Assembly: GCF_000381745.1 (NCBI RefSeq)
Contig: NZ_KB906977.1
Location: forward strand, 1 to 64,000
Reading direction: 5' to 3'
Length of the DNA stretch: 64,000 nt
Source: Psychromonas ossibalaenae ATCC BAA-1528
GTDB taxonomy: Bacteria; Pseudomonadota; Gammaproteobacteria; Enterobacterales; Psychromonadaceae
A model generated the notes under the pieces. The model searched no databases. It was not told the DNA's origin and saw nothing but the letters and a program-made list of their open reading frames with translations. Each line of letters starts with the position of its first letter. The first letter of the stretch is position 1. A program made the position numbers and the translations under genes. This document shows, piece by piece, positions 16,826 through 34,893 of the stretch.

Positions 16826-16919
16826 TTTAGCACTCCTGCTGCCGGCTCTGAGCCGCTAGTAAATGCTGAGTAAATCAGTGCTGCTTCCGAATTTTTTATA
16901 TTCCGGCATTGTATATTCA

Positions 16920-19861: not shown

Positions 19862-20193
19862 CTTATGCTCTCCTGCTGTGCATTGGCCAGTGATAGAGGG
19901 ATTGCAGAATCAATACGCAGCAACTTCATTAATTCCTGCGGCTGGCCCTGCACGCCGATGATTTCCATTGAACGCTGTTGTTCTTTAAGGCGTTTAAACA
20001 GAAATACAATGGCGCCGATACCCGAGGAGTCGATAAAGCTGATGCTGCTGATATCGAGAATTATATGGCGATGCGCCAGAGTGGTTATCTCTTCCAGATT
20101 CGGACGTATTTTACTGCATCCGAGGGCATCCATTTCACCGCTTAACTTAATCATGAGATTATTTTTAGTTGTATCAAACTGTTCAATATTCAT
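19849..20193 (-). CDS. sypA: SypA-like STAS anti-anti-sigma-type protein
   Basis: This small protein (114 residues from the ATG at 20193) is a single STAS domain: MIKLSGEMDALGC, HIILDISSISFIDSSGIGAIV, KLLRIDSAIPL. The regulatory serine is in DSSG; in V. fischeri SypA the equivalent Ser is the target of SypE and its unphosphorylated form promotes biofilm. An ATG four codons upstream (20205) is possible, but GGATGGA lies just ahead of the second ATG. It heads the operon A-B-C-D-E-receiver-PhnD-F-G and is preceded by a sigma-54 promoter (20230-20246) and LuxO-type sites (20321-20352). Confidence 0.88.
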   Translation of the reverse strand: MNIEQFDTTKNNLMIKLSGEMDALGCSKIRPNLEEITTLAHRHIILDISSISFIDSSGIGAIVFLFKRLKEQQRSMEIIGVQGQPQELMKLLRIDSAIPLSLANAQQESIRCAH

Positions 20194-20228
20194 AATTCCA
20201 TCCATTTTCAGAGAAGATATATGAGTTA

Positions 20229-20246
20229 TTGCAGAGTTCGTGCCTA
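20229..20246 (-). promoter_or_regulatory. Sigma-54 promoter of sypA operon
   Basis: The minus strand reads AGGCACGAACTCTGCAA, with GG and GC separated by exactly 10 bases as required for the -24/-12 elements. It is about 35 bp upstream of the sypA start and about 80 bp from the operator pair at 20321-20352. Confidence 0.75.
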
Positions 20247-20320
20247 ATTTGTTTTATTTAATTAAAACAAGTTGTTACCTGTTTTTCTATGTGTGTTTGT
20301 GGTGTTTTTTTTAAAGTTTT

Positions 20321-20352
20321 TTGCATAATGCAAATCCTTTTGCAAAGTGCTC
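20321..20352. promoter_or_regulatory. LuxO/SypG-type operators upstream of sypA
   Basis: TTGCATAATGCAA (20321-20333) is a perfect match to the LuxO consensus TTGCA-N3-TGCAA. A second, weaker site TTGCAAAGTGCTC follows at 20340-20352, 19 bp away centre to centre. Placement upstream of a sigma-54 promoter is as expected for an enhancer of the SypG-type activator. Confidence 0.75.
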
Positions 20353-20357
20353 AGTGA

Positions 20358-20622
20358 TATACCCGTTATCATTCAAGATGCAAAAATCAGCAAGCCGTGA
20401 GGTGAACAGTTTCTAGGCGTGAAGGTGAAGATCTAACGGGTTAAATCAATACTTCACAACAACGAAAATGTTTGCCTCACGGCTTGCCCCGTGGGTCACT
20501 AGCTCGAAAACCAATACTGCGTTGCAACATTCGATAAGGGCTAGCCATTGTCATCATGTTACGCCTTGTCTTGGTGTCCGAGCTAGCGACTGATAAATGC
20601 ATTTTGATTGGTAACGGGTATA
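20358..20622 (-). mobile_element. 265-bp MITE-like element, copy 1
   Basis: The element is bounded by imperfect terminal inverted repeats (TATACCCGTTATCATTCAA on the left; the complement of the right end reads TATACCCGTTACCAATCAA). It has no coding capacity of its own. Internally GCAAGCCGTGAGG (20390-20402) pairs perfectly with 20475-20487. A copy in the opposite orientation lies at 37237-37500 and looks about 90 percent identical by eye. Its right end overlaps the 3' end of the adjacent endonuclease-like gene. Confidence 0.8.
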
Positions 20623-21615
20623 GCTAATTCAGTCAGCAGCAGCAGGTGATCTGAACCCTGGATCGTTTTATATTGTTTGTTTAAAACTATAAATGCATTA
20701 CTGATCAGGCAGTGATCGATATATGCGCTGCTAAGCATGTGCATCACATAATTATCCTTGCTGTAGGACCAGCTGGCAATGTAGCCGAATCCTTCGGCGC
20801 TGTTTTTTAAACGACTGTTTTGCTGTAAAGATTTAAATTCACCGGACCAGGGCGTACTGTTGAAATCGCCTATAACAATTTTATAGGGTAAAGAGGAAGC
20901 GGAGACCTGCTCAGCTGCATAAGTAAGCACGGCATTTCTTAGCCGCCATAGTTTTTCTGTGCGCGGGGAGGCCGGATGCAGCGCATAGATCTGCACAGGT
21001 GCGGCATCTTTCGGGCTTTGGATAATAACTTCAAGAATATGACCGCCTTTATAACCTAAATTATGAATCTTTTTTTCAACAATCGGCCACCTTGAGAAAA
21101 GTGCCAGACCGGAAGGCGTGGACTCTAAAGGGTCTATGCCGAACGAGTAGGGATAATATTGTGACAGAGCCTTTATCTGCTTATGCTGATGATCTGCTGC
21201 TTCCTGAACTACCAGCAGATCAAAATCAGGATCGCTTAATGTTGATATCAGCATATCCAGATGCGGATTTTCATAGCGGAGATTTAACTGCGCAATTGTT
21301 AACGCTGTCATTTTAGATAACAGTTGATTCTGCTGCTGTGCTTTAGATGACAGGTATAACGGCAGCTGGTTATAGGCGATTATCATTAAATATAAAACTG
21401 CACAGGGCAGTGTAGAACTGTGCATATATTGGATATTTATTAGTATTAATACTATCGCCAGTAAGGACCACTGCAGCTGCAGACTGATCTAACCACCACA
21501 GTGAAATATCGGCTGACAGGGCCGGCATCAGGAGCAGGATAAAAACGCTAAGGTTAAGCAGGTAAAAAGCATAACGGACCGCTAGAGACCGGCTAACCTC
21601 TGCGTCTTTAACCAT
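20583..21615 (-). pseudogene. Endonuclease/exonuclease/phosphatase-fold membrane protein, frameshifted
   Basis: Two overlapping frames make one gene. The first (21615 to about 21485) encodes a hydrophobic N-terminus ending in ISLWWLD; the second, open from 21488, continues with LQLQWSLLAIVLILINIQY and then an EEP catalytic domain: LNLRYENP, DLLVVQE, YALHPASP, VIGDFNSTPWSG and GSDHLLLL. Together they give about 340 residues with three membrane segments and a C-terminal hydrolase, the usual shape of this family. A single-base shift near 21485-21491 joins them; it could be a real mutation or a sequence error. The first frame overlaps the sypR stop by 8 bp. The last dozen residues (IPVTNQNAFISR) and the stop are encoded by the end of the MITE. 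If intact it would be a phosphodiesterase or phosphatase accessory to the locus; function unknown. Confidence 0.7.
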
Positions 21616-22291
21616 TGCACTTTATTACCGTTAATATCGTCTTTAAAAAAATCTGCGCATCTGTTTTCAGCCATGATAAAGGTGTGCTTATTGCCAGGGA
21701 ATAAGCATGATCAAAGGCGAGCTTTTGATCGAGATTATTAACACTGCCTAAATAGCTCTGGTTAATCTGCGCAAGCCCGGTTAGGCCGGGTAATACCTGA
21801 TAGGTTCTTTCGCTGAAAAACGGCATTTTCTTTTCTATTTCGCTGGTTAATTCTGGCCTTTCTGGTCTCGGGCCGATAAGCGACATATCACCAGATAAAA
21901 TATTAATCAGCTGCGGTGTTTCATCAAATCTTGTTTTGCGTAAAAATTTACCGACCCGGGTGATGCGTGGATCTGACTTTGCGGCTAACAGTGCGACGCC
22001 GTCAATTTCAGCATCTGTATACATGCTGCGAAATTTGAAAATACTGAACTGATGGCGAAAACCGAGCCGGGATTTACCTAAGCGCTGCTGCTGGTAGAAA
22101 ACCGGGCCTTTACTGTCTATTTTTATCAGCAGCGCAATAAACGGCAGTAAAGGCAGCAGCGCAAACATTGCGCTTAATGAGAAAACTACATCAAATAAAC
22201 GTTTTCCATATTTTACCGTCGGGTGAATATAACCGCCGGCATTGCTTTTATAACTGTTATTTACAGTTGTTTCAGAGATATTTGCAGACAT
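21608..22291 (-). CDS. sypR: SypR-like undecaprenyl-phosphate sugar transferase
   Basis: This 227-residue initiating glycosyltransferase has one N-terminal hydrophobic segment (about 34-54) and the bacterial sugar transferase signature: KRLFDVVFSL, GPVFYQQQRLG, FKFRSMYTDAE, LRKTRFDETPQLINI, DMSLIGPRPERPEL and PGLTGLAQIN. It would attach the first sugar phosphate to undecaprenyl phosphate at the inner membrane. It follows sypQ by 14 bp and is the last of the H-R series, as in V. fischeri. Confidence 0.9.
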   Translation of the reverse strand: MSANISETTVNNSYKSNAGGYIHPTVKYGKRLFDVVFSLSAMFALLPLLPFIALLIKIDSKGPVFYQQQRLGKSRLGFRHQFSIFKFRSMYTDAEIDGVALLAAKSDPRITRVGKFLRKTRFDETPQLINILSGDMSLIGPRPERPELTSEIEKKMPFFSERTYQVLPGLTGLAQINQSYLGSVNNLDQKLAFDHAYSLAISTPLSWLKTDAQIFLKTILTVIKCNG

Positions 22292-22305
22292 GATCTGTTC
22301 CTTAT

Positions 22306-23493
22306 TTAATTGATTTTTGTCCAGCGGCCTTTATCCAGACGTAAGGCGTAGCGCAGTGTGCCGATCAGTCCGGCGATATGTCCGCCGACTAAATAGGCGA
22401 GTAGTTTACTGATCTTGTTAGTTCGTTGTGGTTTGTATAAAAGCTCCCATGATGCCAGTAAATAAGCGAGCAGCTGCAGGCCCGCCAGAAGTGTAAAAAG
22501 AACATAATCTGCCGCCAGCAGCAGACTGCCCAGCAGCGCACTGATCATTAAAAACGGCATTAAAACCCGCAGTCCTTTCCCGGAAATAAAAGCAAATGCG
22601 ACGCCGCCGTAACGTGGTAAAAACAGTTGTTTTAATCTCAGCAGCTGTTGAAAATTACCGGCTGCAATACGACGGCGGCGCAGATGGTCCTGACTGCTGC
22701 TGGATTTTTCTAGTTCAAGCGCATTAATGTTGTTTTCATAATCAGCGCGGTAACCTGCCGCCACAATTTTCATCGGTAAGATAAAATCATCATTAATAGT
22801 GTCGGGTGCTAACGGCTCAAACAAGGCTCGTCGGAAAAGATAGAAAGCGCCATGTGCGCCAAGCGTCGAGCCCAGTGCTGCTTCGCTGGCTTTTATGCTG
22901 CTTTGATAATTCCAGTAAGCAGCTTCTCCAGCTGAACCGGGTGAGAGCAGGCGGTAGTGTCCGTTAAGCACGCCGATATCAGGATCTTCAAAACGCTGTG
23001 CGGCAATCAGAAGAGAATCAATGGAGAGCAGGGCAGAGGTATCACTCAATGCGATTAACTCACTGTCGAGTGAGGCTATCAGCTCGTTAAGCACTGCAAC
23101 TTTGCCTCGGTTGCCGCTGAAATTAATTATTTTAACTCTCAGGTGAGCGCACTCCGGCTCTTTAACGGCAGCGGATGCGGCTGCAAAAGTCTGATCGCTG
23201 CAGCCGTCACAGCCGATAATTATCTGTACACGGTTACTCGGATAATCGAGCGCAGCCAGGTTACGGATTTTCTCTGCAATCCACTGCTCTTCGTTATAAG
23301 CCGGTATTACAATCGCGATTGACGGCAGGGAGCTGTCTTGCGGCGAACTTGTATAATGGCGCAGAGCGGTTGGCTGCGTATTTTTCGGCTGCTGTTTATG
23401 AAAGGCGCGTAATATCAGCGGGTATCCGAAGTGATGATAGATAATTAAAAAGCCGCTGAGCAGGGTGATGCTGATCACAATGATATCATTCAT
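22306..23493 (-). CDS. sypQ: SypQ-like family 2 membrane glycosyltransferase
   Basis: This GT2 enzyme (395 residues from the ATG at 23493, which follows AGGAG and overlaps the sypP stop) has an N-terminal membrane helix, a GT-A domain (IAIVIPAYNEEQWIAEKIRNL; IIIGCDGCSDQT; ALSDTSALLS; a late SSQDHLRRRRIAAGN, which resembles the Q/R-RRW motif) and two or three C-terminal membrane segments. It adds a sugar to the lipid-linked chain at the inner membrane, as hyaluronan- or cellulose-synthase relatives do. The same frame stays open further upstream, but that would overlap sypP by 98 bp and lacks a ribosome site. Confidence 0.85.
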   Translation of the reverse strand: MNDIIVISITLLSGFLIIYHHFGYPLILRAFHKQQPKNTQPTALRHYTSSPQDSSLPSIAIVIPAYNEEQWIAEKIRNLAALDYPSNRVQIIIGCDGCSDQTFAAASAAVKEPECAHLRVKIINFSGNRGKVAVLNELIASLDSELIALSDTSALLSIDSLLIAAQRFEDPDIGVLNGHYRLLSPGSAGEAAYWNYQSSIKASEAALGSTLGAHGAFYLFRRALFEPLAPDTINDDFILPMKIVAAGYRADYENNINALELEKSSSSQDHLRRRRIAAGNFQQLLRLKQLFLPRYGGVAFAFISGKGLRVLMPFLMISALLGSLLLAADYVLFTLLAGLQLLAYLLASWELLYKPQRTNKISKLLAYLVGGHIAGLIGTLRYALRLDKGRWTKIN

Positions 23494-24586
23494 AGTATTC
23501 TCCTGAAGTGACCAACGGCCCGCGTAATCCAGCATAGGATCTGGCCATTGCGCGCACATCGCCATGCTGTTTAACAAAAGCACGAGGTTTGTTATTACTG
23601 GGGTTGTGGAGCATTTTCAACAGTGTTTCAGCCATGCTGGTGCAGTCATCGGCGGCTATAAATTCACCGCTGTCCGGGCAGAGTGTTTCTTTTGCGCCGC
23701 CGACATCGGTGACTAAAGCCGCAATATTGCAGGATTGTGCTTCTAGTGGAGAAAGCGGCAGCCCCTCATTTAATGAAGGCAGACAAAACAGATCTAATGC
23801 CTGATAAAAGGTCGGCATATTATCAATATGACCAAGGAAATGGACGCGGTTATTAAGCCTAAGCAGATCAACTAAGGTCCGCAAAGCGGTTTCCGTACTG
23901 CCGCTGCCGGCAAGGGCAAGATGAACAGTCAGGGGTAATTTACTCAGAGCATGAATCAGTACACTTTGTCCTTTTACTTTTTCCATTCGCCCGCTGCAGC
24001 CGATCAGCTGTACATCTGCCGGTAAGCTGAAAAAAGCTCTAGCCATTATTTTATTGCCGGGAGTAAAGTATTTACTGTCAATACCGTTGCGGATAATGGT
24101 TATTTCATTCTTATATTGAAGAAAAACTCTCATATTATCAGCCACGTTTTGCGCGTCGGCGACCAGTATCGGGCGTAGAAGATTAACTGCGCAGCGCTGC
24201 ACAAAACGGCGTTTACTGTTTTTAAGATGCCAGGCATCATGTTCGGTGTGAATCAGATGTTTAACACCTGCCAGACGAGCCGCTAGACCCGCATATAAAA
24301 GCGGGCCGATATGATGAGTGTGCACGGCGTCCGCCCCGGTTTTGCTGATGATACGGAGCAGCTGCATCACCAGTATCGGTCTTAAGCCTGGCTGTTTATT
24401 AAGAAATATCAGCTGCCTGGCAAAGGGTTTTAATTTAGGCCATGCCGCGACTGCGCTTTTTAGATCACCTTCGAGGCTGATAATGATGGTTTTTTCGTCT
24501 GCCTGCGCAAAAGAAGCCAGATCCAGGGCGATAATCTCGATGCCGCCGGGGCGCAGGTGCTGTACAACTTGTATCACTGTTTTCAT
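23486..24586 (-). CDS. sypP: SypP-like family 1/4 glycosyltransferase
   Basis: This 366-residue GT-B enzyme has an N-terminal acceptor domain (VVQHLRPGGIEIIALDLA; the DAVHTHHIGPLLYAGL stretch) and a C-terminal donor-binding domain with GCSGRMEKVKGQSVLIHAL, FLGHIDNMPTFYQALDLFCLPS and the EX7E-type motif SLNEGLPLSPLEAQS. It would transfer one sugar in the cytoplasm during repeat-unit assembly. Its ATG overlaps the sypO stop (ATGA). Confidence 0.85.
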   Translation of the reverse strand: MKTVIQVVQHLRPGGIEIIALDLASFAQADEKTIIISLEGDLKSAVAAWPKLKPFARQLIFLNKQPGLRPILVMQLLRIISKTGADAVHTHHIGPLLYAGLAARLAGVKHLIHTEHDAWHLKNSKRRFVQRCAVNLLRPILVADAQNVADNMRVFLQYKNEITIIRNGIDSKYFTPGNKIMARAFFSLPADVQLIGCSGRMEKVKGQSVLIHALSKLPLTVHLALAGSGSTETALRTLVDLLRLNNRVHFLGHIDNMPTFYQALDLFCLPSLNEGLPLSPLEAQSCNIAALVTDVGGAKETLCPDSGEFIAADDCTSMAETLLKMLHNPSNNKPRAFVKQHGDVRAMARSYAGLRGPLVTSGEYYE

Positions 24587-26034
24587 AAAGCGTCTCCTGA
24601 ACTTGTCGGGTATAGAATGTAGGGAATGCGGCTTAAAACCGGAACGCCGCTCAGTGCTGCCAGGTGGTCACGTCTGCGTAGTGTGCTGTCGCAGACTTCC
24701 TGGATAACTGCCAGTCCGCATCCTAGCAGCAGCCCGCCTAACAGACCGCTGATTAGAAATAGAATTAAAGGTTTGTTGGAAGGTGAGCTGGGAGTAAAGG
24801 GGCGATCAATCACCTTAACGCGTTTGTCGCGCTCAAAAACGCCTAATGAGGCGGTAATACTGGCTTTTTCATAGCGCAGTAAAATGTCGTCATAGAGATC
24901 CCGTTTTACGGCAAGATCGCGTTCAAGTTTGGATAACACACTGGCATTCGCACCGTATCCGGACATCTGTGCTTCTAACTCATTAATCATGCTCTGCAGA
25001 CTGTTAACCTCTTCGCGCAGTCCGTCGACTTTACCGCTGGTCCGCTGCATATTTTCAAGCTGGGAAATTAACAGCGGCTGCTTCTTCGGGTCACTGCTCA
25101 GCTGGTAATTACTGCCGATAGCCCAGAGTTTTTCGATACTTAAATTTTCATCGCTGCTGCCGAGCAGGCTTTGTCTCTCCTCTTCCAGGCGTTCAAGGTT
25201 TTTCAGTGCGCCGAGCACTAGACTGTGCTGATCGGTGTAACGGGCTCTAAGTAACGCCAGTTCGCCCTGTAGTCTAATAATTTTCTGTTCGATAAGTCCG
25301 ACAACCGGATTCGTTTTTGACAGCTGCTGATTTATGCCTCCTAGACTGCGGCTGGCACCGGCCATTTCCGCCTGCCGTTCTGAAAGGCGCTGTTTCATCT
25401 GCGCCAGACGAGAAATATTAGTAAGGTGCATTTCAGGTAATTCCGATGCGTACCTGTCTTTAAAATCGGCCATCGCTAATTCTGCTTTATCTAGTTCTAT
25501 CTGACGACTGCGCAGGTGCTTAGATAAAAAATTACTTGAATCGGTCATGGATGAACGTTCGGGAGCCAGAACTTGTTCAACAAACTGCTTACTGACCGAT
25601 TCAAGCATCTCCTTCATGCCCGCAGGATTATTTGCTTTGTAGTCAATACGGATAAGATCTTTGCCGAGCATCACAATGGTCAGTGCGCCGGACAGCTGAT
25701 TTATGACCTGATCATGCTTTTCTGCTGTTGTGCTGCTGTTAACTAAGCCGCGTTCCTGTGCAACCGCCCCTAAAATATGACGGCTGTGAAGCAGTATTTT
25801 CAGAGAGTTGATACGCTCATTGAGCATTGAAGATACCGCTAGATCTTCTAGAAACGGGTTTAGTTTGGCTGTTTCCTGAATCAGCATACTGGTATGAGAT
25901 GCATAATTTTTTGCACTCAGCATGCTCATTAATACAGCAAAAACAGGCAGTATTAATACCGGTATCAGAATGGTGTAGCGTCTGCGCCACGTGCCTGCCA
26001 GTATAATGTAAAAGCGCTGCTGCAGGCTGTTCAT
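24583..26034 (-). CDS. sypO: SypO-like Wzz/chain-length determinant
   Basis: This 483-residue protein from the ATG at 26034 (overlapping the sypN TGA) has two membrane helices (about 18-40 and 425-447) enclosing a long periplasmic region with coiled-coil sequence (about 160-390), and a proline-rich VKVIDRPFTPSSPSNKPLI just before the second helix, the hallmark of PCP/Wzz and GNVR proteins. It sets polymer length and would partner SypD and SypC. No fused kinase domain is present, so SypD is the likely cytoplasmic partner. Confidence 0.87.
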   Translation of the reverse strand: MNSLQQRFYIILAGTWRRRYTILIPVLILPVFAVLMSMLSAKNYASHTSMLIQETAKLNPFLEDLAVSSMLNERINSLKILLHSRHILGAVAQERGLVNSSTTAEKHDQVINQLSGALTIVMLGKDLIRIDYKANNPAGMKEMLESVSKQFVEQVLAPERSSMTDSSNFLSKHLRSRQIELDKAELAMADFKDRYASELPEMHLTNISRLAQMKQRLSERQAEMAGASRSLGGINQQLSKTNPVVGLIEQKIIRLQGELALLRARYTDQHSLVLGALKNLERLEEERQSLLGSSDENLSIEKLWAIGSNYQLSSDPKKQPLLISQLENMQRTSGKVDGLREEVNSLQSMINELEAQMSGYGANASVLSKLERDLAVKRDLYDDILLRYEKASITASLGVFERDKRVKVIDRPFTPSSPSNKPLILFLISGLLGGLLLGCGLAVIQEVCDSTLRRRDHLAALSGVPVLSRIPYILYPTSSGDAL

Positions 26035-27173
26035 AATGCTTCCAGCCATGTTGACACTTCTGCTGCGCGTGCTTCCCAGCTTTTTGTGATCACAGTACTG
26101 CGCAGCACATCTGGGAAAAGGGCAAGGTCGTGAAGGTGTTCACTTGCTGATAAAGCTTCAACCATAGCGTCGCTGTTATTGGCTGTCTGTACTAAACCGC
26201 GGTAAGGCTCAACGGCAGCAAATGAGGTGCAGATAATTGGACTGCCGGCTGCCAGGTACTCGGTTAATTTGAGCGGATTACATGCCTGAATCTGCGCGTT
26301 GTCGATAAAAGGTAATAATGAGGCTGTCCAGTGCTGACTGTAGGACGGCAGCTGCTGATGAGGGCGCTCACCTAAAAAACTGACATTGTCAAAACAGCTT
26401 ATTCTGCTGACATCTACAACTACTTTACCGATAAATACGAAATGCCAGTCGGGCATTTTCCTTATGGTGTTGCGCAGTAATTCAATATTTAACCACTCGG
26501 AAATACTGCCGTAAAAACCAGCAATATTACGACCGTCGTCGGGCAGATCCGGCGCGCGTTGTACCGGGGCTGAAAACAGTGAGTAATCAACACCGTGAGT
26601 GAGCAGGTGTGTGCGAGATACTGGAAAACTATATTCCAGGTGTCTGCTGGCCGCCATTATTAAATCGGCTTTATCACGCAGTTCATTTTCGCGTTTAACG
26701 ACGGTATCGTGATCCACGCCGGCCAGCCCGGAAAAATCATCGCCGCAGTAGTAAACAAGTGCAGCTTCATCTAAATGACCCGCTAGGTCAACCGCAGTTG
26801 GTAGAGATGTCCAAAGTATGGGGGAGTTTAACCCTGCTTTTTTTATCACTGGTTTAATCTGTGAAAGCAGCAGCTGCACTGCAATATATCGTGCCGTCCG
26901 GCTGCGCGGTGCAGGCAGTGTGCGCGGATTAATAATATGAAAGCCGCTGTTTTCAGGCGCGCTGGTCAGCTCCGTTTTATCGTAACAGACCTTAGGGGCG
27001 GTTAATTTATGCCACAGACGTTTTAGATCATGCAGGCTTAAAGTAGGGCGGCGTAAACCAATTGAATTAACCCAGACAACTTTACGGGTTTTAGACAGCT
27101 GTTTTATCAGGTGCTGAGTACTGCTGGGTAATCCACCCCAGTCTTCAGCAAATACAATCAGATCATGAGTCAT
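26031..27173 (-). CDS. sypN: SypN-like glycosyltransferase
   Basis: This GT-B family protein (380 residues from the ATG at 27173, preceded by GGAG at good spacing) begins LIVFAEDWGGLPSSTQHLI and has the donor domain features FYGSISEWLNIELL, FLGERPHQQLPSYSQHWTASLLPF and LKLTEYLAAGSPIICT, as in glycosyltransferases related to TuaH-like or WsaF-like enzymes. Substrate unknown. It follows sypM directly and is coupled to sypO by an ATGA overlap. Confidence 0.82.
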   Translation of the reverse strand: MTHDLIVFAEDWGGLPSSTQHLIKQLSKTRKVVWVNSIGLRRPTLSLHDLKRLWHKLTAPKVCYDKTELTSAPENSGFHIINPRTLPAPRSRTARYIAVQLLLSQIKPVIKKAGLNSPILWTSLPTAVDLAGHLDEAALVYYCGDDFSGLAGVDHDTVVKRENELRDKADLIMAASRHLEYSFPVSRTHLLTHGVDYSLFSAPVQRAPDLPDDGRNIAGFYGSISEWLNIELLRNTIRKMPDWHFVFIGKVVVDVSRISCFDNVSFLGERPHQQLPSYSQHWTASLLPFIDNAQIQACNPLKLTEYLAAGSPIICTSFAAVEPYRGLVQTANNSDAMVEALSASEHLHDLALFPDVLRSTVITKSWEARAAEVSTWLEAL

Positions 27174-27174
27174 T

Positions 27175-27918
27175 TTATTTATCCTCCAGGTCAGGTGTGT
27201 CTGCCTGCTCAATAGAGCGGATCACGCAGGCGGGAATACCGCCGGCCAGCACCAGCGGAGGCAGGTCATGTGTTACTACGCTGCCGGCCGCCACGATACA
27301 GCCGTGACCAATGCGGACCCCTGCCATGACAGAGACGCCGGTTGCCAGCCAGACATCTTTTTCAAGAATGATCTCTCCAACCTGGTCATCACTCTCCGGC
27401 AGACCCTGAGCACGCGCCTGCGGGTCTAACGGGTGGCCGGGATAACCCGCTAATAAAGCCCGCCCGGCAATACGCACGTTATCACCAATTTCAACACGGG
27501 AGCCTGCGGCTATGGTAGTCATCCAGCCGATATCGACGTTATTGCCGACCACTAAAACCGGGGCCGTCTGCGCGCAGCTGCGTCCGCTGAAAGTCGATTG
27601 TCCTGAGACTCGGCAGTTATCTCCAATACTGATGACTAGCGGGCCGCTGATATAGGGCAGTCCGCCGTACAGGTTAAGATTACGCCCGACGCTTTGTAAG
27701 CGGCCTTTTAATAAAGGTGTCCAGCACAGGATGCGCATCAGTGTCGACAGCAGTGTGCGCAGCAGCAGGTACAAAGAATAAAAAATACGGAGCAGAAATT
27801 TAGGCGCCGGCAGCTCAAAACTAAGCAGAGTTTTAAGCTGCCTGAAGAGAATTTTAGCCAGTGGATTATCACTGGTTTTCAGCCATTGCTTAGTCTGGTT
27901 TAAAGTGAATGTTTTCAT
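27175..27918 (-). CDS. sypM: SypM-like hexapeptide-repeat acyltransferase
   Basis: This 247-residue protein (ATG 27918; GGAG nine bases upstream) has a short N-terminal helical part with a hydrophobic stretch (about 45-65), then a left-handed beta-helix of hexapeptide repeats (about 75-240), e.g. ISIGDNCRVSG, VLVVGNNVDIG, VEIGDNVRIAG, VSVMAGVRIGHG and IVAAGSVVTHD. It resembles WcaF/CysE-type O-acetyltransferases and would modify the polysaccharide repeat. It is the first gene of a unit with its own sigma-54 promoter and operators between it and sypL. Confidence 0.87.
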   Translation of the reverse strand: MKTFTLNQTKQWLKTSDNPLAKILFRQLKTLLSFELPAPKFLLRIFYSLYLLLRTLLSTLMRILCWTPLLKGRLQSVGRNLNLYGGLPYISGPLVISIGDNCRVSGQSTFSGRSCAQTAPVLVVGNNVDIGWMTTIAAGSRVEIGDNVRIAGRALLAGYPGHPLDPQARAQGLPESDDQVGEIILEKDVWLATGVSVMAGVRIGHGCIVAAGSVVTHDLPPLVLAGGIPACVIRSIEQADTPDLEDK

Positions 27919-27977
27919 AAAATAGCACTCCACAGTTTTTAACTTATTAATAAAAACGTCATCTGTATCAGTGTGTT

Positions 27978-27994
27978 TGCAGAGATCAAGCCAA
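27978..27994 (-). promoter_or_regulatory. Sigma-54 promoter of sypM unit
   Basis: The minus strand reads TTGGCTTGATCTCTGCAAA. GG and GC are 10 bases apart. It is about 60 bp upstream of the sypM start. Confidence 0.7.
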
Positions 27995-28066
27995 GTTTTT
28001 ATATTGATAAAAATCAGTGGGTTAGTTGTTTTTTAAGTGCTGTTAACGCGTGCAGTTTAAGATGAT

Positions 28067-28092
28067 TTGCAAAGTGCATTCGCAGAATGCGA
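28067..28092. promoter_or_regulatory. LuxO/SypG-type operators upstream of sypM
   Basis: Two adjacent near-consensus sites: TTGCAAAGTGCAT (28067-28079) and TCGCAGAATGCGA (28080-28092), the second a perfect dyad that extends to TTCGCA/TGCGAA. They lie about 85 bp upstream of the sypM sigma-54 element, just past the sypL stop. Confidence 0.65.
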
Positions 28093-28100
28093 ATTGAGTA

Positions 28101-29495
28101 TTATTTAACAGTCAGCGTTTGCGGCAGGTTGTTGTCACACCACTGTGCAATCGCGACGACCAGCGCAGCTAGAATATAAATCGGCCAGGTGAACCCCTGA
28201 GTTAAAAAAGTGGCTGAAACAATTGTCCCGACCAGACCCGCAAATACTGCTTGAGCCGCCACATGTACAGCAGGATTTACCTCACTGATATTTTGTTCAA
28301 TTCTATTAAGGCTGCGCATTGCTGTTTTAATCAGCTGAGTCATGGTGATTATGAAGACCAGCAGGCCGACAAATCCGGTCTCTGCAAGCACGCCGAACCA
28401 GGTGCTGTGTACCGCATGATTGAGTCCGTCCCAGTGTGGACTGTAGTAATAATAATTAGAGTAAAAATTATTGATGCCGACTCCGCTGAACGGGTTGTGC
28501 ACTGCCATACCGAATGCGGCTTCCCATGCATATAAACGGCCCATAGCGGAAGCGTCGATACCCGCTTCAGCTGCGCCCCCTGAAGCGCGGTCGGAAATGC
28601 CGGCAAAGACAAAAAGTGCGCAGGCGGCAATAACTGCAATAGTAATAAACAGTATTTTAGAGTGCATGCGCCGGTAGCCGTAAACTGCGAAGATAGCCAT
28701 CATGCCGAGCAGACCGCCGCGGCTTTGGGTGGCGATAATCGCGAAAAACAGGATCAGCACACTGACCCCTCCTAACAGTTTTGCTCCGTGTCCGACGTTT
28801 GCGGTCATTATTAAGCTGGCGGCAAATGCAACGGGAAACATCAGTACCAGTGCGAGATCATTAGGGTCGCCCAGAACAGATCCTATATCCCGGCCGATGG
28901 TGACACGTGTCCCTTCGACTAAACCAATCGCATTAATCTGGTTGGAGATAGCGACTAGTCCAACCAGCATGCCGAAAAAGGTGATCAGCTTTGAGGCTAA
29001 AGCAAAATCTTTTTCACTGCGCGAAAGCCAGGCAATCGCAAAAGTCATAATGATTATTTTCCAGTAAATACCTTTAAAATATTCAATAGCGACAGGGCGG
29101 TTGCTTGCCAGTAATACCCCGACTACAACCAGCGTAAAAAACACACTGATAACGGTTAGTTCCGAACGCCAGTAAATATCCACCTTACGGGTTAACCCGA
29201 CATGCCATAACAGGGCCCCGAGTGAAGCCATCGATAATAATAACGGGATTTTAAAATTATAGATTTGCGGAAAGACTTCATGAATACGGAAAAAGGAGAA
29301 AATAACAAATAACAGCACAAAAAAGAAAGGCTGGCGCAGCACTATTAACACTGCAAGCGGCACCAGTCCGATAACTATCATGATCAACGGATTCGGTATA
29401 AACCGCCATGCCAGACTAATCAGCACACAAACTGACAGGCACACAAACAGCGGCATTACTATCTGCCTGCTGTGGTTATTGCGCTCCGGATTCAT
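28101..29495 (-). CDS. sypL: SypL-like Wzy/O-antigen ligase-type polymerase
   Basis: This 464-residue polytopic inner-membrane protein has about 11-12 predicted helices and the Wzy_C region in the second half (TQSRGGLLGMMAIFAVYGY, then a large periplasmic loop with NPFSGVGINNFYSNYYYYSP and HAVHSTWFGVLAETGFVGLL). These match O-antigen ligase/polymerase proteins that join lipid-linked repeat units in the periplasm. The ATG overlaps the sypK stop (ATGA). Confidence 0.87.
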   Translation of the reverse strand: MNPERNNHSRQIVMPLFVCLSVCVLISLAWRFIPNPLIMIVIGLVPLAVLIVLRQPFFFVLLFVIFSFFRIHEVFPQIYNFKIPLLLSMASLGALLWHVGLTRKVDIYWRSELTVISVFFTLVVVGVLLASNRPVAIEYFKGIYWKIIIMTFAIAWLSRSEKDFALASKLITFFGMLVGLVAISNQINAIGLVEGTRVTIGRDIGSVLGDPNDLALVLMFPVAFAASLIMTANVGHGAKLLGGVSVLILFFAIIATQSRGGLLGMMAIFAVYGYRRMHSKILFITIAVIAACALFVFAGISDRASGGAAEAGIDASAMGRLYAWEAAFGMAVHNPFSGVGINNFYSNYYYYSPHWDGLNHAVHSTWFGVLAETGFVGLLVFIITMTQLIKTAMRSLNRIEQNISEVNPAVHVAAQAVFAGLVGTIVSATFLTQGFTWPIYILAALVVAIAQWCDNNLPQTLTVK

Positions 29496-30919
29496 TGCTC
29501 TGCTGCCTTGGCAAATAAGCTGATCGGCAGGTTGATTAATTTAAGCAGCTGCGCGCTAAGCACAATCGTTATGAATGCGCTGAACAAGGCTAGAATCAAC
29601 TGCCACAAAGCATTTGTTTGTGAGCCGATAAGCAGCCACAGCATACTAATAGTAAAGAGCACCATAAGCGGCCTGACGGGGTAGTTGAGAGGCAGAAAAT
29701 ACTGACTTATTTTATAAAAAAGCACCAGACGAATAAACTGCGCTAACAGCAGAGAAAAAATAATTCCCCATACCTGATAGTCGGGGGTTAACCACAGCAT
29801 GGCGGCGATGCCGGCGGCTGCACCGGTTAAATTAATCAGCAGCTGGCTGTTTGTGGTCTCACCGCTGAAACAGCCTATATTGAATAGTTCTACCAGCTCT
29901 TTTAATAACATAACCAGCACTAGAGCAAGTGCATATTTTCCCGCTTCCTGGTAGCTTGGCGGCAGTAAAGCACTGATCAATGCGGGAGCAAGTAAACCGA
30001 CTACAACAGCTGTCAGCAGCGCCAGACTGGCACCCATTGCAATAAAATCAGCCGCTTTCTGTCTGCCGTTAGCTTCATTGATTACCTCAAATCTGCGCGG
30101 GGACCACCACATACCGAATGGCTGGAATATCAGTACGGCAGCCAGAGCAAATTTGGCTGCAATAGCGAATTCCGCGACATCGGTTAAGGAGGCATTATCT
30201 GCTAAAATCCAGCGGTCCAGTCCGTTCAGCGTAAAGGCGACCAGACCGCTGCCGACTATCGGAAGGCTGTAAATAAATGCGCGTCTGCCGGTTCTTAGGC
30301 TGAAACTGAGCCTCGTATCTCGGATCTGCAGATAACTGAGTATTAGTGTTTGGGCCGCCGCTGCCGCCAGTCCTGCTTCTAAGATGCCCGCTACACCTCT
30401 GCCGGAATAAAGTAAAATAACAACCAGCAGCGCCTGCAGCAGTGCGCGTCCGGTGGTGGCAAAGAAAAAGCTTATTGCGCGGTTATTCATACGCAGCCAG
30501 CCTAGCGGAACAGCAATACAGCCCTCTAATGCCAGTACGGCTAAAACTAAGCGCAGTTCATAAACCTGTACATTTCCCGGCATCCAGGCTGCAACAAAAG
30601 GTGCTGCAAACCATCCGCCAATAAGTGCAGCTAAGGCGATTATCAGGGTTAAACTGAAAATTTCAGATGCTATGCTGCGTTTCTGCTGCTCTGTCTGAGC
30701 CGGGCCTGCAAAACGAAACAAGGTATCTTCGAGTCCCATGCCGACCAGAATGCTGCCGATTACTGCGATTGTGCTGATCACTTCAAGGCGTCCGAATTCC
30801 TGGGCTGATATTTGATTAGCAACAAAGGGCAGTACCAGTAATGAAACACCTTTCATTAAGGCAATGCTGGCGCCGTAGAGAATGCTTTGTTTAATTCCGT
30901 TATTAAGCTGCAGTTTCAT
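29492..30919 (-). CDS. sypK: SypK-like polysaccharide flippase (Wzx family)
   Basis: This 475-residue protein has about 12-14 hydrophobic helices spread over the full length and the MATE/MOP-type N-terminus of Wzx translocases (SILYGASIALMKGVSLLVLPF, SAQEFGRLEVISTIAVIGSIL). It should flip the lipid-linked repeat unit across the inner membrane. ATGA overlaps link it to sypJ upstream and sypL downstream. Confidence 0.87.
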   Translation of the reverse strand: MKLQLNNGIKQSILYGASIALMKGVSLLVLPFVANQISAQEFGRLEVISTIAVIGSILVGMGLEDTLFRFAGPAQTEQQKRSIASEIFSLTLIIALAALIGGWFAAPFVAAWMPGNVQVYELRLVLAVLALEGCIAVPLGWLRMNNRAISFFFATTGRALLQALLVVILLYSGRGVAGILEAGLAAAAAQTLILSYLQIRDTRLSFSLRTGRRAFIYSLPIVGSGLVAFTLNGLDRWILADNASLTDVAEFAIAAKFALAAVLIFQPFGMWWSPRRFEVINEANGRQKAADFIAMGASLALLTAVVVGLLAPALISALLPPSYQEAGKYALALVLVMLLKELVELFNIGCFSGETTNSQLLINLTGAAAGIAAMLWLTPDYQVWGIIFSLLLAQFIRLVLFYKISQYFLPLNYPVRPLMVLFTISMLWLLIGSQTNALWQLILALFSAFITIVLSAQLLKLINLPISLFAKAAEQ

Positions 30920-32055
30920 AGTCTTGATCTCCTAACCAGACTTTTTTTATCTAGCTGTGTATCTATTTGTTCAATGCTGTTTTTAATATTTGCGTATTGT
31001 TTTTCAGCTCGGTAATCCTGTGCGATTTCTGCCGCACGTCTCCCCAGTTCAATGACTTGACGCATATTACGGCTGATCATTAACAGTTTATCTTTGAGAT
31101 CTTCAGGATCATCTGCCTGATACTTAATACAATCGCTATTGTTTTTTAATGTGCGGTCCCAATACGCTCCGTCGGCAGGGATCACGATACAATGTGCGGC
31201 CGCCATCGCTTCGAGAATTGACAGGCCGAAGGGTTCGTTTTTGCTGGTGGAGACAAAAATATTAGCGCTGGCCCGCAGCTGATCAATATTGACCGGGTTT
31301 TCATACCAGTCGACCTGCTGTATAGCAACGGGTGCCTGACTGACCGGCAGTTGAGTGCCCTGCGGTTTGATATAACAGATATGAGTCAGCGGGCGCATCT
31401 CTGGTTCGATCTGGATTAATGCATTAAGCAGTGTTTCCAGTCCTTTCCATTTTAAAAGTGATGCTGCCCAGAAAATAACCGGGTATTGAGACTGACAAGG
31501 TGTCGGCCATTGCTGATCACAAAGACCATTGTGCAGTAAATAAAAATGAGCGGGTATTTCGGTCTGTGCCGGACTGATGGTTGACAGAGCCTGCAGTAAC
31601 GAAGCGTGGCTGCTGCTTAGATAATGAACCTGATCAGCTGCATTCAGGCAGCGGGCAATGGTACGGGAGCGGGCAACCGGGCCATGAATGAGCTGAATAA
31701 TTTTCATCGTCAACAGCGGTCTGAGCAGATAAAGTGCTAAATCAACCCCTGGTCCAGAGGCCCCTAAAGCAATATCAAAACGTCCGAAACGTAAACGAGT
31801 AATCAGTAAATTAAGGGCAATAAGCGCATGACGGAAAAAATAGCTCAAACCCTGCTCTTTTTCAGTAAGCCATTTAGGCTCATATAAGCGTACGCGTTTT
31901 AACGCAGAATATTTCCATGAATGTTTGTCTGCTGTCAGTACGGTAATACGGATCTGCTTTTTATCAAGCTGACGCAGTATGCTTTCGGTGGCAGTTTTAG
32001 ATCCGCCGCAAAATGCAGTAGGGTCTATAACGATAAGGTGGCGTTTATCTGTCAT
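30916..32055 (-). CDS. sypJ: SypJ-like glycosyltransferase
   Basis: This 379-residue GT-B enzyme of family 1/4 type has an N-terminal domain (LIVIDPTAFCGGSKTATES) and a donor domain with VIFWAASLLKWKGLETLLNAL, ANIFVSTSKNEPFGLSILE (EX7E motif) and MAAAHCIVIPADGAYWD. It probably adds one residue of the repeat unit at the cytoplasmic face. The start overlaps the sypI stop by 11 bp. Confidence 0.84.
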   Translation of the reverse strand: MTDKRHLIVIDPTAFCGGSKTATESILRQLDKKQIRITVLTADKHSWKYSALKRVRLYEPKWLTEKEQGLSYFFRHALIALNLLITRLRFGRFDIALGASGPGVDLALYLLRPLLTMKIIQLIHGPVARSRTIARCLNAADQVHYLSSSHASLLQALSTISPAQTEIPAHFYLLHNGLCDQQWPTPCQSQYPVIFWAASLLKWKGLETLLNALIQIEPEMRPLTHICYIKPQGTQLPVSQAPVAIQQVDWYENPVNIDQLRASANIFVSTSKNEPFGLSILEAMAAAHCIVIPADGAYWDRTLKNNSDCIKYQADDPEDLKDKLLMISRNMRQVIELGRRAAEIAQDYRAEKQYANIKNSIEQIDTQLDKKSLVRRSRL

Positions 32056-33286
32056 GAATTAATCCTCTTTCAATGAACCGTTTATACCCGTTACTTAAAG
32101 AGGCATAGATAGAATCGTTTTTATACCAGGGTTGATAGACGGTAGGCGTTTCAATTAGTTTGTCGTACAGCAGTTCAAACTGTCTGGTGTTCTTTTCTAT
32201 GGTGAAGTTCTTTAATACATGCTTGCGGCCGGCTTTTCCCATTTTGCTGCTCAGTGTCGGATTGAGATAGAGTTTATGAACGGCAGCCGCAAGTGCATCG
32301 ACATCTTCTGAGGGCACTAACAGCCCAGTCCTGCCGTCGACAACAGCATCGGCAATGCCGCCTGTTTTAGGGCCGACTACCGCAAGCCCGGCAAGGCCGG
32401 CTTCAGTAAATACCAGGCCGAATGCTTCTTCTCTGGCTGCGGAGACAAACAAGTCTGTGCTGCCTCGCAGTATGCCGATAACATTATCCTGTTCGCCGAG
32501 CAGTGTTACCTGACGCTGCAGGCCGAGCTGCTCAATCTGCAGTTTTAAATTATGGGATTCGGGACCCTGACCTATCACAAGAAGATGAACCGGCACCTGT
32601 TTTTCTAATAATTTAACAACTGCTTGAATAATCAGATCTACTCCTTTACGGCGGATCAGGGAGCCGACGACGGCCAGAACAAAATCACCAGCGCCTATTT
32701 TTAAAGAATCACGAAGATTAATGATTTTCTGACTCAGCAGGCGCTGCGTATCAATGCCGTTGGCAATAACAGCGGTACGGGTGTTGGGCATTTTATCTTT
32801 AACTAAAGGCTCGATAACATAGCTGCTGACACCAACCGCCATGGTGACCTGATAGAGGCCAAGCGTCAGTCTGTCGCGCAGCTGGTAAATTGAGTGCATA
32901 TGGCATAATAATGGGACGCCGCATCTGCGCGCTGCAAAATTGAGCCACTGACAGGGAGCTGCACTGTTTGCATGAAGCAGTTTGATATTGTGTAGTTGTA
33001 TTAGTTTAACGGCCTGCTTGATCAGACCGATAAAAGCGCTTGTATGAAAGTGCGGGCTGCGCCAGCCAAGCAGTAAAGGGAAATCTGAACAGTAAACTGT
33101 GATGCCGAGTGCTTTAGCCTGATCTGCCATTACCTGCTGGTTGCACCACAAAACCGCAGTGAATCTGTTTTTATCGAGATGCTGAATAAGATCCAGCAGG
33201 CAGCGTTCACTGCCGCGTATCCAGTTATCGCCGTAATGGGTAAAGAGAATGGTATCTGCTTCCTGGTTCATTTTAAGTTTATGCAT
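32045..33286 (-). CDS. sypI: SypI-like glycosyltransferase
   Basis: This family 1/4 GT-B enzyme has HYGDNWIRGSERCLLDLI at the N-terminus and the donor-site set VVGSLIRRKGVDLIIQAV, LLGEQDNVIGILRGSTDLFV and SAAREEAFGLVFTEAGLAG (EX7E). The same frame is open 15 codons further up to 33331, but the predicted sigma-54 start site (about 33317) lies inside that extension, so I choose the ATG at 33286 (413 residues). It has its own promoter and operator, as does V. fischeri sypI. Confidence 0.84.
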   Translation of the reverse strand: MHKLKMNQEADTILFTHYGDNWIRGSERCLLDLIQHLDKNRFTAVLWCNQQVMADQAKALGITVYCSDFPLLLGWRSPHFHTSAFIGLIKQAVKLIQLHNIKLLHANSAAPCQWLNFAARRCGVPLLCHMHSIYQLRDRLTLGLYQVTMAVGVSSYVIEPLVKDKMPNTRTAVIANGIDTQRLLSQKIINLRDSLKIGAGDFVLAVVGSLIRRKGVDLIIQAVVKLLEKQVPVHLLVIGQGPESHNLKLQIEQLGLQRQVTLLGEQDNVIGILRGSTDLFVSAAREEAFGLVFTEAGLAGLAVVGPKTGGIADAVVDGRTGLLVPSEDVDALAAAVHKLYLNPTLSSKMGKAGRKHVLKNFTIEKNTRQFELLYDKLIETPTVYQPWYKNDSIYASLSNGYKRFIERGLIHDR

Positions 33287-33327
33287 GGCTGTTATGCTCT
33301 TATTGCTGAATCGGTATGCTGAGTACT

Positions 33328-33344
33328 GCAAGAGCTGAACCAGA
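33328..33344 (-). promoter_or_regulatory. Sigma-54 promoter of sypI unit
   Basis: The minus strand reads CTGGTTCAGCTCTTGCAGT: TGG and TTGCA elements with 10 bases between GG and GC. It is about 45 bp upstream of the chosen sypI start and 100 bp from the operator at 33441-33453. Confidence 0.7.
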
Positions 33345-33440
33345 CTTGTTAATAGATTGAAATTTAAGGGAATGTAGCTGTAAATAGAGGTGAAAAGTGT
33401 ATTTTGAAGATGTTGTTATAGCGCTTATTATTATCCTGCA

Positions 33441-33453
33441 TTGCAGATTGCAA
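33441..33453. promoter_or_regulatory. LuxO/SypG-type operator upstream of sypI
   Basis: TTGCAGATTGCAA is a perfect match to TTGCA-N3-TGCAA. It lies in the sypH-sypI gap. The identical 13-mer, with flanks on both sides also conserved (GCA before, TATTA after), recurs upstream of sypH. Confidence 0.75.
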
Positions 33454-33504
33454 CTATTACAGGCTGCGCCTTACTGCCGCCGCCTGTTTAACAACAGGCC
33501 GCTT

Positions 33505-34521
33505 TCATTTACAGCTCGATATTTTCCTGTAAGCGGCGATAAGTTTCGGTATGGCTGTTTCACTGGAAAAGTTATCTGCGATGGTATTCTTAGCTACAGA
33601 CTGTAGAGCTGTTTTTTTCTGTTCGCTGATATTATTCCATAAGCTGATATGCCGGCTTAAATCTGCAAAATTTTCCGGTTCAACTAACCAGCCGTTACTG
33701 CCCGATGTGATTAACTTATCAAGCGCACCGACCTGAAAAGCCAGCACCGGAATACCTCTTGCCATTGCTTCTAATGCGGCCATAGGCAAACCTTCGTATC
33801 GTGAAGGAATGACCAGTAAAGCAATCTGTGACCAGACCGCGTTCATATCGTCCTGCTGGCCATGAAGATGCAGATTAGCGGGGCTGGATTCTTGTAGTTG
33901 CGGCAGCTGCGGACCGTCGCCGTAGAGATGGAAGTCTAATACTGGAAAGCGCCTCGCCAGAGCCATAAAATGATCTGGACCTTTTTCTATACTTACCCGC
34001 CCTACAAATGCAGTCTGTCCGCCATTTGAATGATTTATGCCGGCGGTATTCACGAAATTATTAAAAACTTCAGCTTTTTTCGATAGACGCTGCGCTATCT
34101 GCGGGCTGACTGCGTAAACATGGTCGGCAAAGACCGAGGTGAGTCTGTCTAGGTAATCGTATAATGCAAGTCTGCCACTGCTGATTTCGCCGGCGTGATA
34201 GGTGCTTATGACCGGAATCTTAGTTAACCAGGCAGAGAGCCGGCCGAATATTCCGGCTTTATAACCATGGGTATGCAGTACAGAAGGGCGCTCACGCCGC
34301 AGTCTTTTGTAAAGTGTAATAAAAGAGCCGTCTAGGGTTTTAGTGGTTATACCCTGTTTGAGTAACAAGTCCCGCATCGGATGTCTGCCGTAGTCAGTCA
34401 GGAAAAAAACGACTATTTCCTGACCATGTTGATGCAGACCTTCAGCCAGCTGCAGAACATGAGATTCTATTCCGCCTGCTTTACTACTGTCTAGAAGTAA
34501 CCATATTGTCTGTTTTTTCAT
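33505..34521 (-). CDS. sypH: SypH-like glycosyltransferase
   Basis: This 338-residue family 1/4 GT-B enzyme has an N-terminal SSKAGGIESHVLQLAEGL, a central TAFVGRVSIEKGPDHFMAL, and VWSQIALLVIPSRYEGLPMAALEAMARG (EX7E) in the donor domain. It is the first biosynthetic gene of the H-R block. A strong sigma-54 promoter lies 40-55 bp upstream and a perfect operator about 180 bp upstream. The next gene, sypI, has a separate promoter. Confidence 0.85.
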   Translation of the reverse strand: MKKQTIWLLLDSSKAGGIESHVLQLAEGLHQHGQEIVVFFLTDYGRHPMRDLLLKQGITTKTLDGSFITLYKRLRRERPSVLHTHGYKAGIFGRLSAWLTKIPVISTYHAGEISSGRLALYDYLDRLTSVFADHVYAVSPQIAQRLSKKAEVFNNFVNTAGINHSNGGQTAFVGRVSIEKGPDHFMALARRFPVLDFHLYGDGPQLPQLQESSPANLHLHGQQDDMNAVWSQIALLVIPSRYEGLPMAALEAMARGIPVLAFQVGALDKLITSGSNGWLVEPENFADLSRHISLWNNISEQKKTALQSVAKNTIADNFSSETAIPKLIAAYRKISSCK

Positions 34522-34560
34522 TACAGCCTCATTTTATAAACGAATTTTAACTGTGCCTGG

Positions 34561-34577
34561 TGCAATTTTGGTGCCTG
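34561..34577 (-). promoter_or_regulatory. Sigma-54 promoter of sypH
   Basis: The minus strand reads AGGCACCAAAATTGCA, almost the textbook element (GGCAC-N5-TTGCA), with exact spacing. The predicted start is near 34550, about 30 bp from the sypH ATG. Confidence 0.8.
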
Positions 34578-34701
34578 TTAGGTTTTTGATGGTTTTATCA
34601 AAGTCAGCGACGGGCGCTGTTTCTAGCGCGGCCGAGGTAAGCAGGACGCCGAGTGAGTTTAAAAAGCTGCGCTTATTAGAAAGTATGCGGTGCAGTGCGC
34701 A

Positions 34702-34714
34702 TTGCAGATTGCAA
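34702..34714. promoter_or_regulatory. LuxO/SypG-type operator between sypH and the LruC gene
   Basis: TTGCAGATTGCAA is a perfect consensus match, about 130 bp upstream of the sypH sigma-54 element. It could also serve the divergent sigma-54-like element at 34895-34910. Partial half-sites (TGCGCA, ATGCAA) flank it. Confidence 0.75.
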
Positions 34715-34893
34715 TTATTATGCAAAAGCATCTGTACATAGAGTGCTTTTAGAAAAGAAAAAACATCTCCCGTACCTACAGCGGGTATCTGCCAGTCCAG
34801 CTCTGGCCTGCTCTGCACAGGATAATGACTGTTTTTTATCTGAATTGGCACAGGAATTGAAATAGTCAGTCTAGCTGTTACTGCAATAAGTCA

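Follow-up and report, generated by a model that had tools for sequence, protein, structure and literature searches.

Here we describe the syp polysaccharide locus of Psychromonas ossibalaenae ATCC BAA-1528 and the elements that may control it, as they appear in the first 64,000 nucleotides of contig NZ_KB906977.1 (assembly GCF_000381745.1), a stretch that we call the window. The locus runs along the minus strand in the order sypH, I, J, K, L, M, N, O, P, Q and R, a phosphatase-family gene, sypA, B, C, D and E, a gene for a single receiver (REC) domain, a gene for a PhnD-like protein, a hybrid kinase gene and, last, sypG; the letters are those that we take to apply from domains and gene order, following an earlier, sequence-only reading of this DNA. 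In Vibrio fischeri, promoters that use the activator SypG and sigma-54 precede sypA, sypI, sypM and sypP. The window has sigma-54-like elements at sypA, sypI, sypM and sypH, each below a palindrome that is, to judge by its letters, of the type read by LuxO, and that stands beside a SypG.

Candidate operator and promoter pairs at the syp units

All four pairs lie on the minus strand. The sequence-only reading had put palindromes at 20321, 28067, 33441 and 34702, each with a GG-N10-GC element 80-130 base pairs (bp) downstream. The palindromes are indeed there, three of them perfect copies of TTGCANNNTGCAA (TTGCA-N3-TGCAA) and that of sypM, TTGCAAAGTGCAT, with one mismatch, and the elements lie within 2 bp of where they had been placed; the pairing is real as well, and only the spacing, measured from palindrome start to -24 start, is slightly wider, at 86-138 bp. 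At sypA the perfect palindrome (20321-20333) stands 88 bp from the sigma-54-like -24/-12 element AGGCACGAACTCTGCA (20230-20245), and an extra half-site, TTGCAAA, lies just upstream of the palindrome at 20339-20345. At sypM two palindromes stand in tandem (28067-28092), the first at 28067-28079 and directly after it a weaker one with two mismatches at 28080-28092, and the element TGGCTTGATCTCTGCA (27978-27993), of the form GG-N10-GC, begins 86 bp from the first. The sypI pair comprises a perfect palindrome (33441-33453) and, at 111 bp, the element TGGTTCAGCTCTTGCA (33327-33342), while the sypH pair joins another perfect palindrome (34702-34714), a candidate activator site, to the element AGGCACCAAAATTGCA (34561-34576, score 14.3) at 138 bp. 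Syp genes lie downstream of the GG-N10-GC elements in four of four units, and the window thus shows a trait of the LuxO regulon, TTGCA-N3-TGCAA upstream of a sigma-54-like promoter. The enhancer of V. fischeri type, TTCTCA-N3-TGC, was not found: at the sypH, sypM and sypA promoters a TCTCA palindrome matches at 6-8 of 10 positions, as against 9-10 of 10 for TTGCA.

The earlier reading had also reported a promoter at sypH and none at sypP, and both statements hold: the sypH pair is the one just given, and a search of the window revealed no pair at sypP, which overlaps sypO (24583-24586) and so leaves no room for a promoter. In our opinion sypH has a promoter of its own because the A-to-G block sits behind sypR, so that sypH opens its run; the swap of a sypP promoter for a sypH promoter is likely explained by this gene order, H to R and then A to G, together with the overlap.

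The genes were placed by open reading frames (ORFs) and Pfam domains, again on the minus strand. The glycosyltransferase gene sypH lies at 33505-34521, sypL, K, J and I at 28101-33331, sypR, Q, P, O, N and M at 21608-27933, the gene of the endonuclease/exonuclease/phosphatase family (PF03372) between sypR and sypA at 20583-21425, and sypD, C, B and A at 16076-20205, sypA with its STAS domain taking up 19849-20205. There follow sypE (14524-16071), whose product combines HATPase_c_2, REC and SpoIIE phosphatase domains, the single-domain REC protein (14095-14478), the PhnD-like periplasmic binding protein (13241-14047; PF12974, 2e-63), the hybrid histidine kinase with HAMP, PAS, HisKA, HATPase, REC and Hpt domains (10216-13239) and sypG (8788-10188), with which the run from sypA onwards ends. 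The TTG listed as the start codon of sypI (33331) lies within the -12 element, and the in-frame ATG at 33286 is the more likely start; in sypA, the ATG at 20193 is invariant in the alignment of six of six Psychromonas. The succession of PhnD-like protein, hybrid kinase and LuxO-family activator recalls LuxP-LuxQ-LuxO, and the same layout, with an Hpt hybrid kinase, is seen in the loci of Agarivorans (L065) and Photobacterium lipolyticum (L075).

Conservation within Psychromonas

As judged by SypP, a syp locus is present in five of the 23 other Psychromonas genomes searched, and the named locus closest to the window is that of P. aquimarina, with SypP and SypG both 92% identical. In all six locus-bearing genomes, window included, sypA, sypM, sypI and sypH are each preceded by a sigma-54-like element and a palindrome that deviates in one position at most, the two being spaced by 76-145 bp with the exception of one sypH pair (in G008), which is 246 bp apart. 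Over six genomes, 9 of the 13 palindrome columns are invariant at sypA and 8 of 13 at sypM (28067-28079), and over five genomes 10 of 13 at both sypI and sypH; around the palindromes the invariant columns number 45 of 145 at sypA, 29 of 143 at sypM, 25 of 168 at sypI and 17 of 195 at sypH. The sypH palindrome has no mismatch or one in the five other genomes, and the half-site above sypA is invariant in all six. Among the promoter elements, the GG and GC letters are invariant at sypA (six of six), sypM and sypI (five of five), the sypM element keeping 11 of its 16 columns over the six genomes. The 16 letters of the sypH element are identical in P. aquimarina, and G010, Psychromonas sp. Urea-02u-13 (G014) and P. 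hadalis (G016) have variants of their own 113-145 bp below the palindrome.

Chance and signal

The 5.2-Mb genome holds six perfect palindromes, three at syp promoters and the other three within ORFs. A strict pair pattern, which was derived from the four syp sites themselves, matches five times in this genome, four times at the syp sites and not at all in the reversed control; the fifth match (C42:2243) lies within long ORFs and was dismissed. The sequence-only reading had offered to give way if such pairs were equally frequent at random places in the genome, and these counts go the other way. Over 24 Psychromonas genomes the same pattern yields 32 matches, of which 15 fall at syp promoters (in six genomes) and 17 at other places, with three in the reversed control. 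In the matrix scoring that had been proposed, the sypI element is not set apart by its sigma-54 score when taken by itself. What speaks for the syp sites is the combination of palindrome and sigma-54 element, plus conservation, and not the number of loose matches. Because the sigma-54 matrix was built from a consensus, we redid the operator test without sigma-54 information, as described below.

The activator

The product of sypG has all the domains of a group I sigma-54 enhancer-binding protein in Pfam (REC, sigma-54 AAA+ and a Fis-type helix-turn-helix, HTH), and is the presumed reader of the four sites. Its HTH, here called the head in distinction to the REC and AAA+ body, comprises residues 421-464 (8797-8928, minus strand), aligns to Fis 54-92 and reads GNIPKAAALLDVSPSTIYRKKQ, a LuxO-like pattern (NIPKAA...SPSTIYRKK) in which residues 442-444, Ile-Pro-Lys, are encoded at 8857-8865. 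In a tree of bodies, built without the Enterovibrio SypG L172, which has an inner stop, the window activator falls in the SypG clade, with support from the Shimodaira-Hasegawa-like approximate likelihood ratio test (SH-aLRT) of 94 for the SypG fork and 99 for that of LuxO. A second tree, with 31 chosen LuxO/SypG rows, five variant activators that are described below and seven other activators of the window's own genome, again makes it a SypG (support 96/91 for SypG and 100/99 for LuxO). Its best NCBIfam match is the LuxO model NF041946, at 656.7 bits and under the cut-off of 800, and it has the YRKKQ of SypG, not the YRKLQ of LuxO.

All 85 activator candidates of the genome were scored (85/85). 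One belongs to the LuxO/SypG family, the runner-up shares 39% identity and has an unrelated head, and no LuxO was found among them; in a scan of the 64-kb window neither Qrr nor any other Rfam family matched at gathering scores. With one rpoN match in the genome and no second activator of the family, the earlier picture of sigma-54-like promoters and activator palindromes at four syp units, with a SypG encoded in the same locus, stands.

Operators of other syp loci

The available portion of PMC10162802 gives the LuxO site as TTGCAWWWTGCAA and a distinct V. fischeri SypG site as TTCTCANNNTGMDWN, starting TTCTCA, and we use the V. fischeri motif as cited there. The same portion reports that V. 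fischeri syp promoters respond to SypG and not to LuxO, whereas the LuxO sites of qrr1 respond to both, and it describes the mechanism that insulates the syp promoters from LuxO as still to be determined. The sequence-only reading had merged LuxO and SypG sites into one; on the evidence of that portion they are two, and those of the window are of LuxO type.

For a comparison we took 80 named syp loci, the best 80 of 211, which form two groups: 53 loci of Vibrio, Enterovibrio and Grimontia (one from a metagenome-assembled genome, MAG, named only Vibrionaceae) and 27 others (two of them Photobacterium). All 1,024 five-letter N3 palindromes were counted, at a match of at least 9/10, in the 300 bp above each syp gene start that follows a gap of 100 bp or more; the count used no sigma-54 information, did not include the window and left out genes too near the locus end. 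In the 27 other loci TTGCA ranks first, in 36 of 96 regions and 21 of 27 loci, followed by TCGCA with 16, while TCTCA occurs in 2 of 96. In the 53 Vibrio, Enterovibrio and Grimontia loci the first rank goes to TCTCA (91 of 221 regions, 49 of 53 loci) ahead of TTTGA with 31, and TTGCA is found in 0 of 221. Inside genes, TTGCA was counted in 0/82 control regions of the other loci and 5/219 of the Vibrio, Enterovibrio and Grimontia loci, and TCTCA in 0/82 and 10/219, the commonest chance words there being A/T runs (8/82 and 25/219). When sigma-54 positions are used, the 146 promoters counted (window and four further genomes included, those with a sigma-54 score below 10 or too little upstream DNA left out) show TTGCA at 36 of 55 in the other loci and TCTCA at 54 of 91 in Vibrio-type loci, with the opposite word at 1/55 and 0/91. 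A search of the open-licence literature found nothing on the evolution of SypG and LuxO operators or on syp regulation in Psychromonas.

The DNA-reading head and the operator

LuxO heads read GNIPxAA...YRKLQ in nearly all rows, SypG heads of Vibrio GNVLNAA...SPSTVYRKKQ, and those of Enterovibrio and Grimontia GNVLKAA...SPSTLYRKKQ. In alignment, the triplet that distinguishes them falls on Fis 74-76, where the first HTH helix begins, a region that in Fis touches the DNA backbone; the residues SPST-YRK are, we presume by analogy with Fis, the base-reading ones of the recognition helix. A regulator could be assigned in 45 of the 50 genomes searched, the loci L055, L066, L082, L085 and L118 being without one. 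Pro-type heads occur in 20 genomes, four of them with variant activators, and go with TTGCA only in 16, both words in one and neither in three. Leu/Ile-type heads occur in 22, where TCTCA stands alone in 21 (one read by eye) and neither word is seen in one; the remaining three genomes have other heads. No Leu/Ile head is paired with TTGCA sites, and the opposite pairing is found in 0 of 42 genomes overall. Of the Leu/Ile-type genomes, 20 of 22 carry a second copy, of the LuxO clade, as against 1 of 20 Pro-type genomes; the candidates scored for this were 32 first-look candidates per genome (16/16 in one), so that misses are possible. Since Agarivorans, many MAGs and LuxO itself are Pro-type, the Pro-type head with a TTGCA operator is, on this comparison of sequences, the likelier ancestral state. 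Among the LuxO-clade proteins, those of Vibrio halioticoli (L179) and V. breoganii (L180) have an unusual head, SIPxAA...SASTLYRKLEKW.

Variant activators

No ordinary SypG was found among all the candidates scored in Psychromonas sp. Urea-02u-13, P. hadalis, Thalassomonas, Psychrobium and alter-6D02 (G038), where the best activator match reaches 302-317 bits and 37-39% identity. The bodies of these variants are 34-36% identical to that of the window SypG and their heads 70-74%. In the first four the figures are 35-36% and 73-74% and TTGCA sites are kept, Urea-02u-13 and P. hadalis having sites of LuxO type at all four units (sypA, M, I and H). By comparison, seven unrelated activators of the window's own genome have bodies 34-40% and heads 18-32% identical to those of the window SypG. 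In alter-6D02 the head reads GNVAKAA, TTGCA was counted 0 times in the regions used for the comparison of head and operator, and sypH has a one-mismatch site at 87 bp above its sigma-54-like element. The variant gene adjoins the syp locus in Thalassomonas and alter-6D02, and in the tree of bodies the variants stand beside LuxO/SypG (support 94/93) on a long branch. Such variants may take the place of SypG in part of the genomes that carry syp, exchange of the head and divergence both being possible origins.

Discussion

We read the four elements as sigma-54 promoters of the syp biofilm locus, forming a SypG-sigma-54 regulon in a probably ancestral LuxO-type operator state, and give this reading a probability of about 0.83. 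The hybrid kinase and the PhnD-like binding protein beside sypG would be the likely input, SypG being phosphorylated through the kinase. Phosphorylated SypG would then bind the TTGCA-N3-TGCAA palindromes and loop to sigma-54 RNA polymerase at GG-N10-GC, and the presumed operons sypH, sypI-L, sypM-R and sypA-G would be switched on together; binding and promoter activity are predicted by analogy with LuxO and SypG of vibrios. Because sypG lies in the last run, which starts at sypA, SypG should activate its own expression, and because the window SypG keeps a LuxO-like head, its operator would be of LuxO type. This operator beside a SypG is what the earlier interpretation, right in outline, left hidden.

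How the operators came to differ between the two groups of loci can be explained in two ways. In one, to which we give close to an even chance, the split follows from the descent of whole loci with joint drift of head and site, and avoidance of LuxO cross-talk has no part in it. The tree has one main transition, and Photobacterium lipolyticum keeps TTGCA sites beside a LuxO, as such descent would allow; against it stands the distribution of LuxO, found in 20 of the 22 genomes with a Leu/Ile-type head and in 1 of the 20 with a Pro-type head. In the other, which we hold tentatively and rate somewhat short of even, the window has the ancestral SypG operator, and in the line of Vibrio, Enterovibrio and Grimontia, once SypG and LuxO had come to occur together in one cell, the head (Ile-Pro-Lys to Val-Leu-Asn/Lys, giving NVLxAA) and the operator (TTGCA to TCTCA, giving TCTCA-N3-TGAGA) would have changed together, a recoding that separated the SypG and LuxO regulons and insulated syp from LuxO. 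The pair of head and operator would moreover outlive the body, which would have been exchanged beneath an unchanged type of head in some Psychromonas, Thalassomonas and Psychrobium.

Several observations weigh against the regulon or against the recoding. Palindromes with at most two mismatches number 42 in the window as against 61 expected from shuffles, and those with at most one mismatch 125 in the genome as against 101 for the reversed control; the sigma-54 matrix gives 29 matches in the window, the sypI element being tied tenth, and the sypH element does not align in all species, with two of its four GG/GC columns invariant. The comparison of 53 with 27 loci uses a grouping by genus that was chosen after the pattern had been viewed, and V. 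fischeri itself is not among the loci. The SPST-YRK residues are alike in both types of head, so that the determinant of specificity is not obvious, and the change of head and operator comes close to a single event, so that the concordant genomes are not independent. Both words appear in Alteromonas sediminis and Psychromonas Urea-02u-13, and the three Pro-type genomes already mentioned have neither in the regions read. Photobacterium lipolyticum has a LuxO together with a Pro-type SypG and TTGCA sites, so that co-existence does not force the change, and cross-talk of LuxO on syp is predicted there. Lastly, TTGCA-type sites also occur in the loci L082 and L085 (P. galatheae), that of P. galatheae at sypM, and in both genomes the head of the best activator is unrelated; no reader of these sites was found, and P. 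galatheae showed no SypG or LuxO among the matches (46/46 candidates scored, the best by E-value 35% identical).

That the palindromes are read by quorum-sensing LuxO and not by SypG, which would make syp a quorum-sensing output, we consider improbable. The 13-mer equals the LuxO consensus, and the best NCBIfam match of the activator is the LuxO model, though below its cut-off; with no LuxO among the 85 of 85 candidates scored, the sole family member in the SypG clade with YRKKQ in place of YRKLQ, and neither Qrr nor another Rfam family matched in the window, LuxO was rejected as the reader. Least credible of all is that another factor or chance accounts for the palindromes and that syp is transcribed from ordinary sigma-70 promoters, a reading for which relaxed matches no commoner than chance, the 29 matrix matches and the 17 strict pairs outside syp can be cited, and against which stand the three of six perfect genomic sites at syp promoters, the conservation, the strict pairs and the test of 1,024 palindromes, so that we rejected a chance origin.

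The SypG-sigma-54 regulon thus preferred resembles that of V. fischeri, which makes the SYP polysaccharide, in its syp gene set, its sigma-54-like promoters, the SypG encoded in the locus and the promoters at sypA, sypI and sypM. It differs in the operator (TTGCA-N3-TGCAA as against TTCTCA-N3-TGC), in the order H-R then A-G, in the sypH promoter that replaces that of sypP, in the PhnD-like protein and single REC gene inside the locus, and in that no LuxO was found in the genome. With LuxO and the sites upstream of the qrr genes (UAS-LuxO) the window shares the 13-mer palindrome and the NIPxAA-SPSTIYRK head, but its activator is a SypG by body, its targets are polysaccharide genes and no Qrr was matched in the window. 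Homologous polysaccharide loci with a sigma-54 activator, scv and rbd, are found in V. parahaemolyticus and V. vulnificus (activators ScvE and RbdG), and Psychromonas is already named among the scv-positive genera, according to the available portion of PMC8941931, which gives no operator.

The comparison suggests that sister regulators such as SypG and LuxO could be kept apart by a changed operator word and a changed head. It offers a concrete and testable answer to the insulation of V. fischeri syp from LuxO, one operator word plus the three amino acids that open the HTH, and a natural series in which the joint change of paired regulators and sites can be followed, including cases where the body has changed and the head is kept.

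A divergent gene and further pairs

Divergent from sypH, on the plus strand at 34981-37233, lies a gene for an LruC-domain protein (TIGR04456 / PF16130), preceded at 34845-34861 by TTGGCACAGGAATTGAA, which is sigma-54-like without the C of the -12 GC. The gene holds this place in five of the six locus-bearing Psychromonas and was not seen within 2.9 kb before sypH of P. aquimarina; in five of five with the gene there, a motif TTGGCA[CT]R-N4-TTG lies on the gene's side of the sypH palindrome, at a distance of 118-152 bp. The sypH palindrome is possibly shared between the two directions, and on this pattern the LruC-domain gene is a candidate fifth target, a putative matrix protein of the syp regulon. 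The open-licence literature on LruC domains and biofilm yielded nothing on syp. In one further genome (G032) an LruC-domain gene lies behind sypG and has a one-mismatch palindrome of its own as well as a sigma-54-like element with both GG and GC.

A pair is also conserved in two Psychromonas in which no syp locus was found (G009:C25 and G019:C2). It was considered as a Qrr-like RNA and rejected, with no Rfam match up to E 0.1, and it overlaps the 5' side of a gene that by eye resembles a transporter binding protein. The activator search in these further Psychromonas genomes scored at most 61 candidates, so that misses are possible; it revealed in G009 (L205, 1198-4337) and G019 (L206) an activator distantly like LuxO (49% identical), which follows an Hpt gene in the manner of luxU-luxO. 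In both genomes a pair of palindrome and sigma-54 element stands beside an EAL-domain gene, assigned by Pfam for G009 only.

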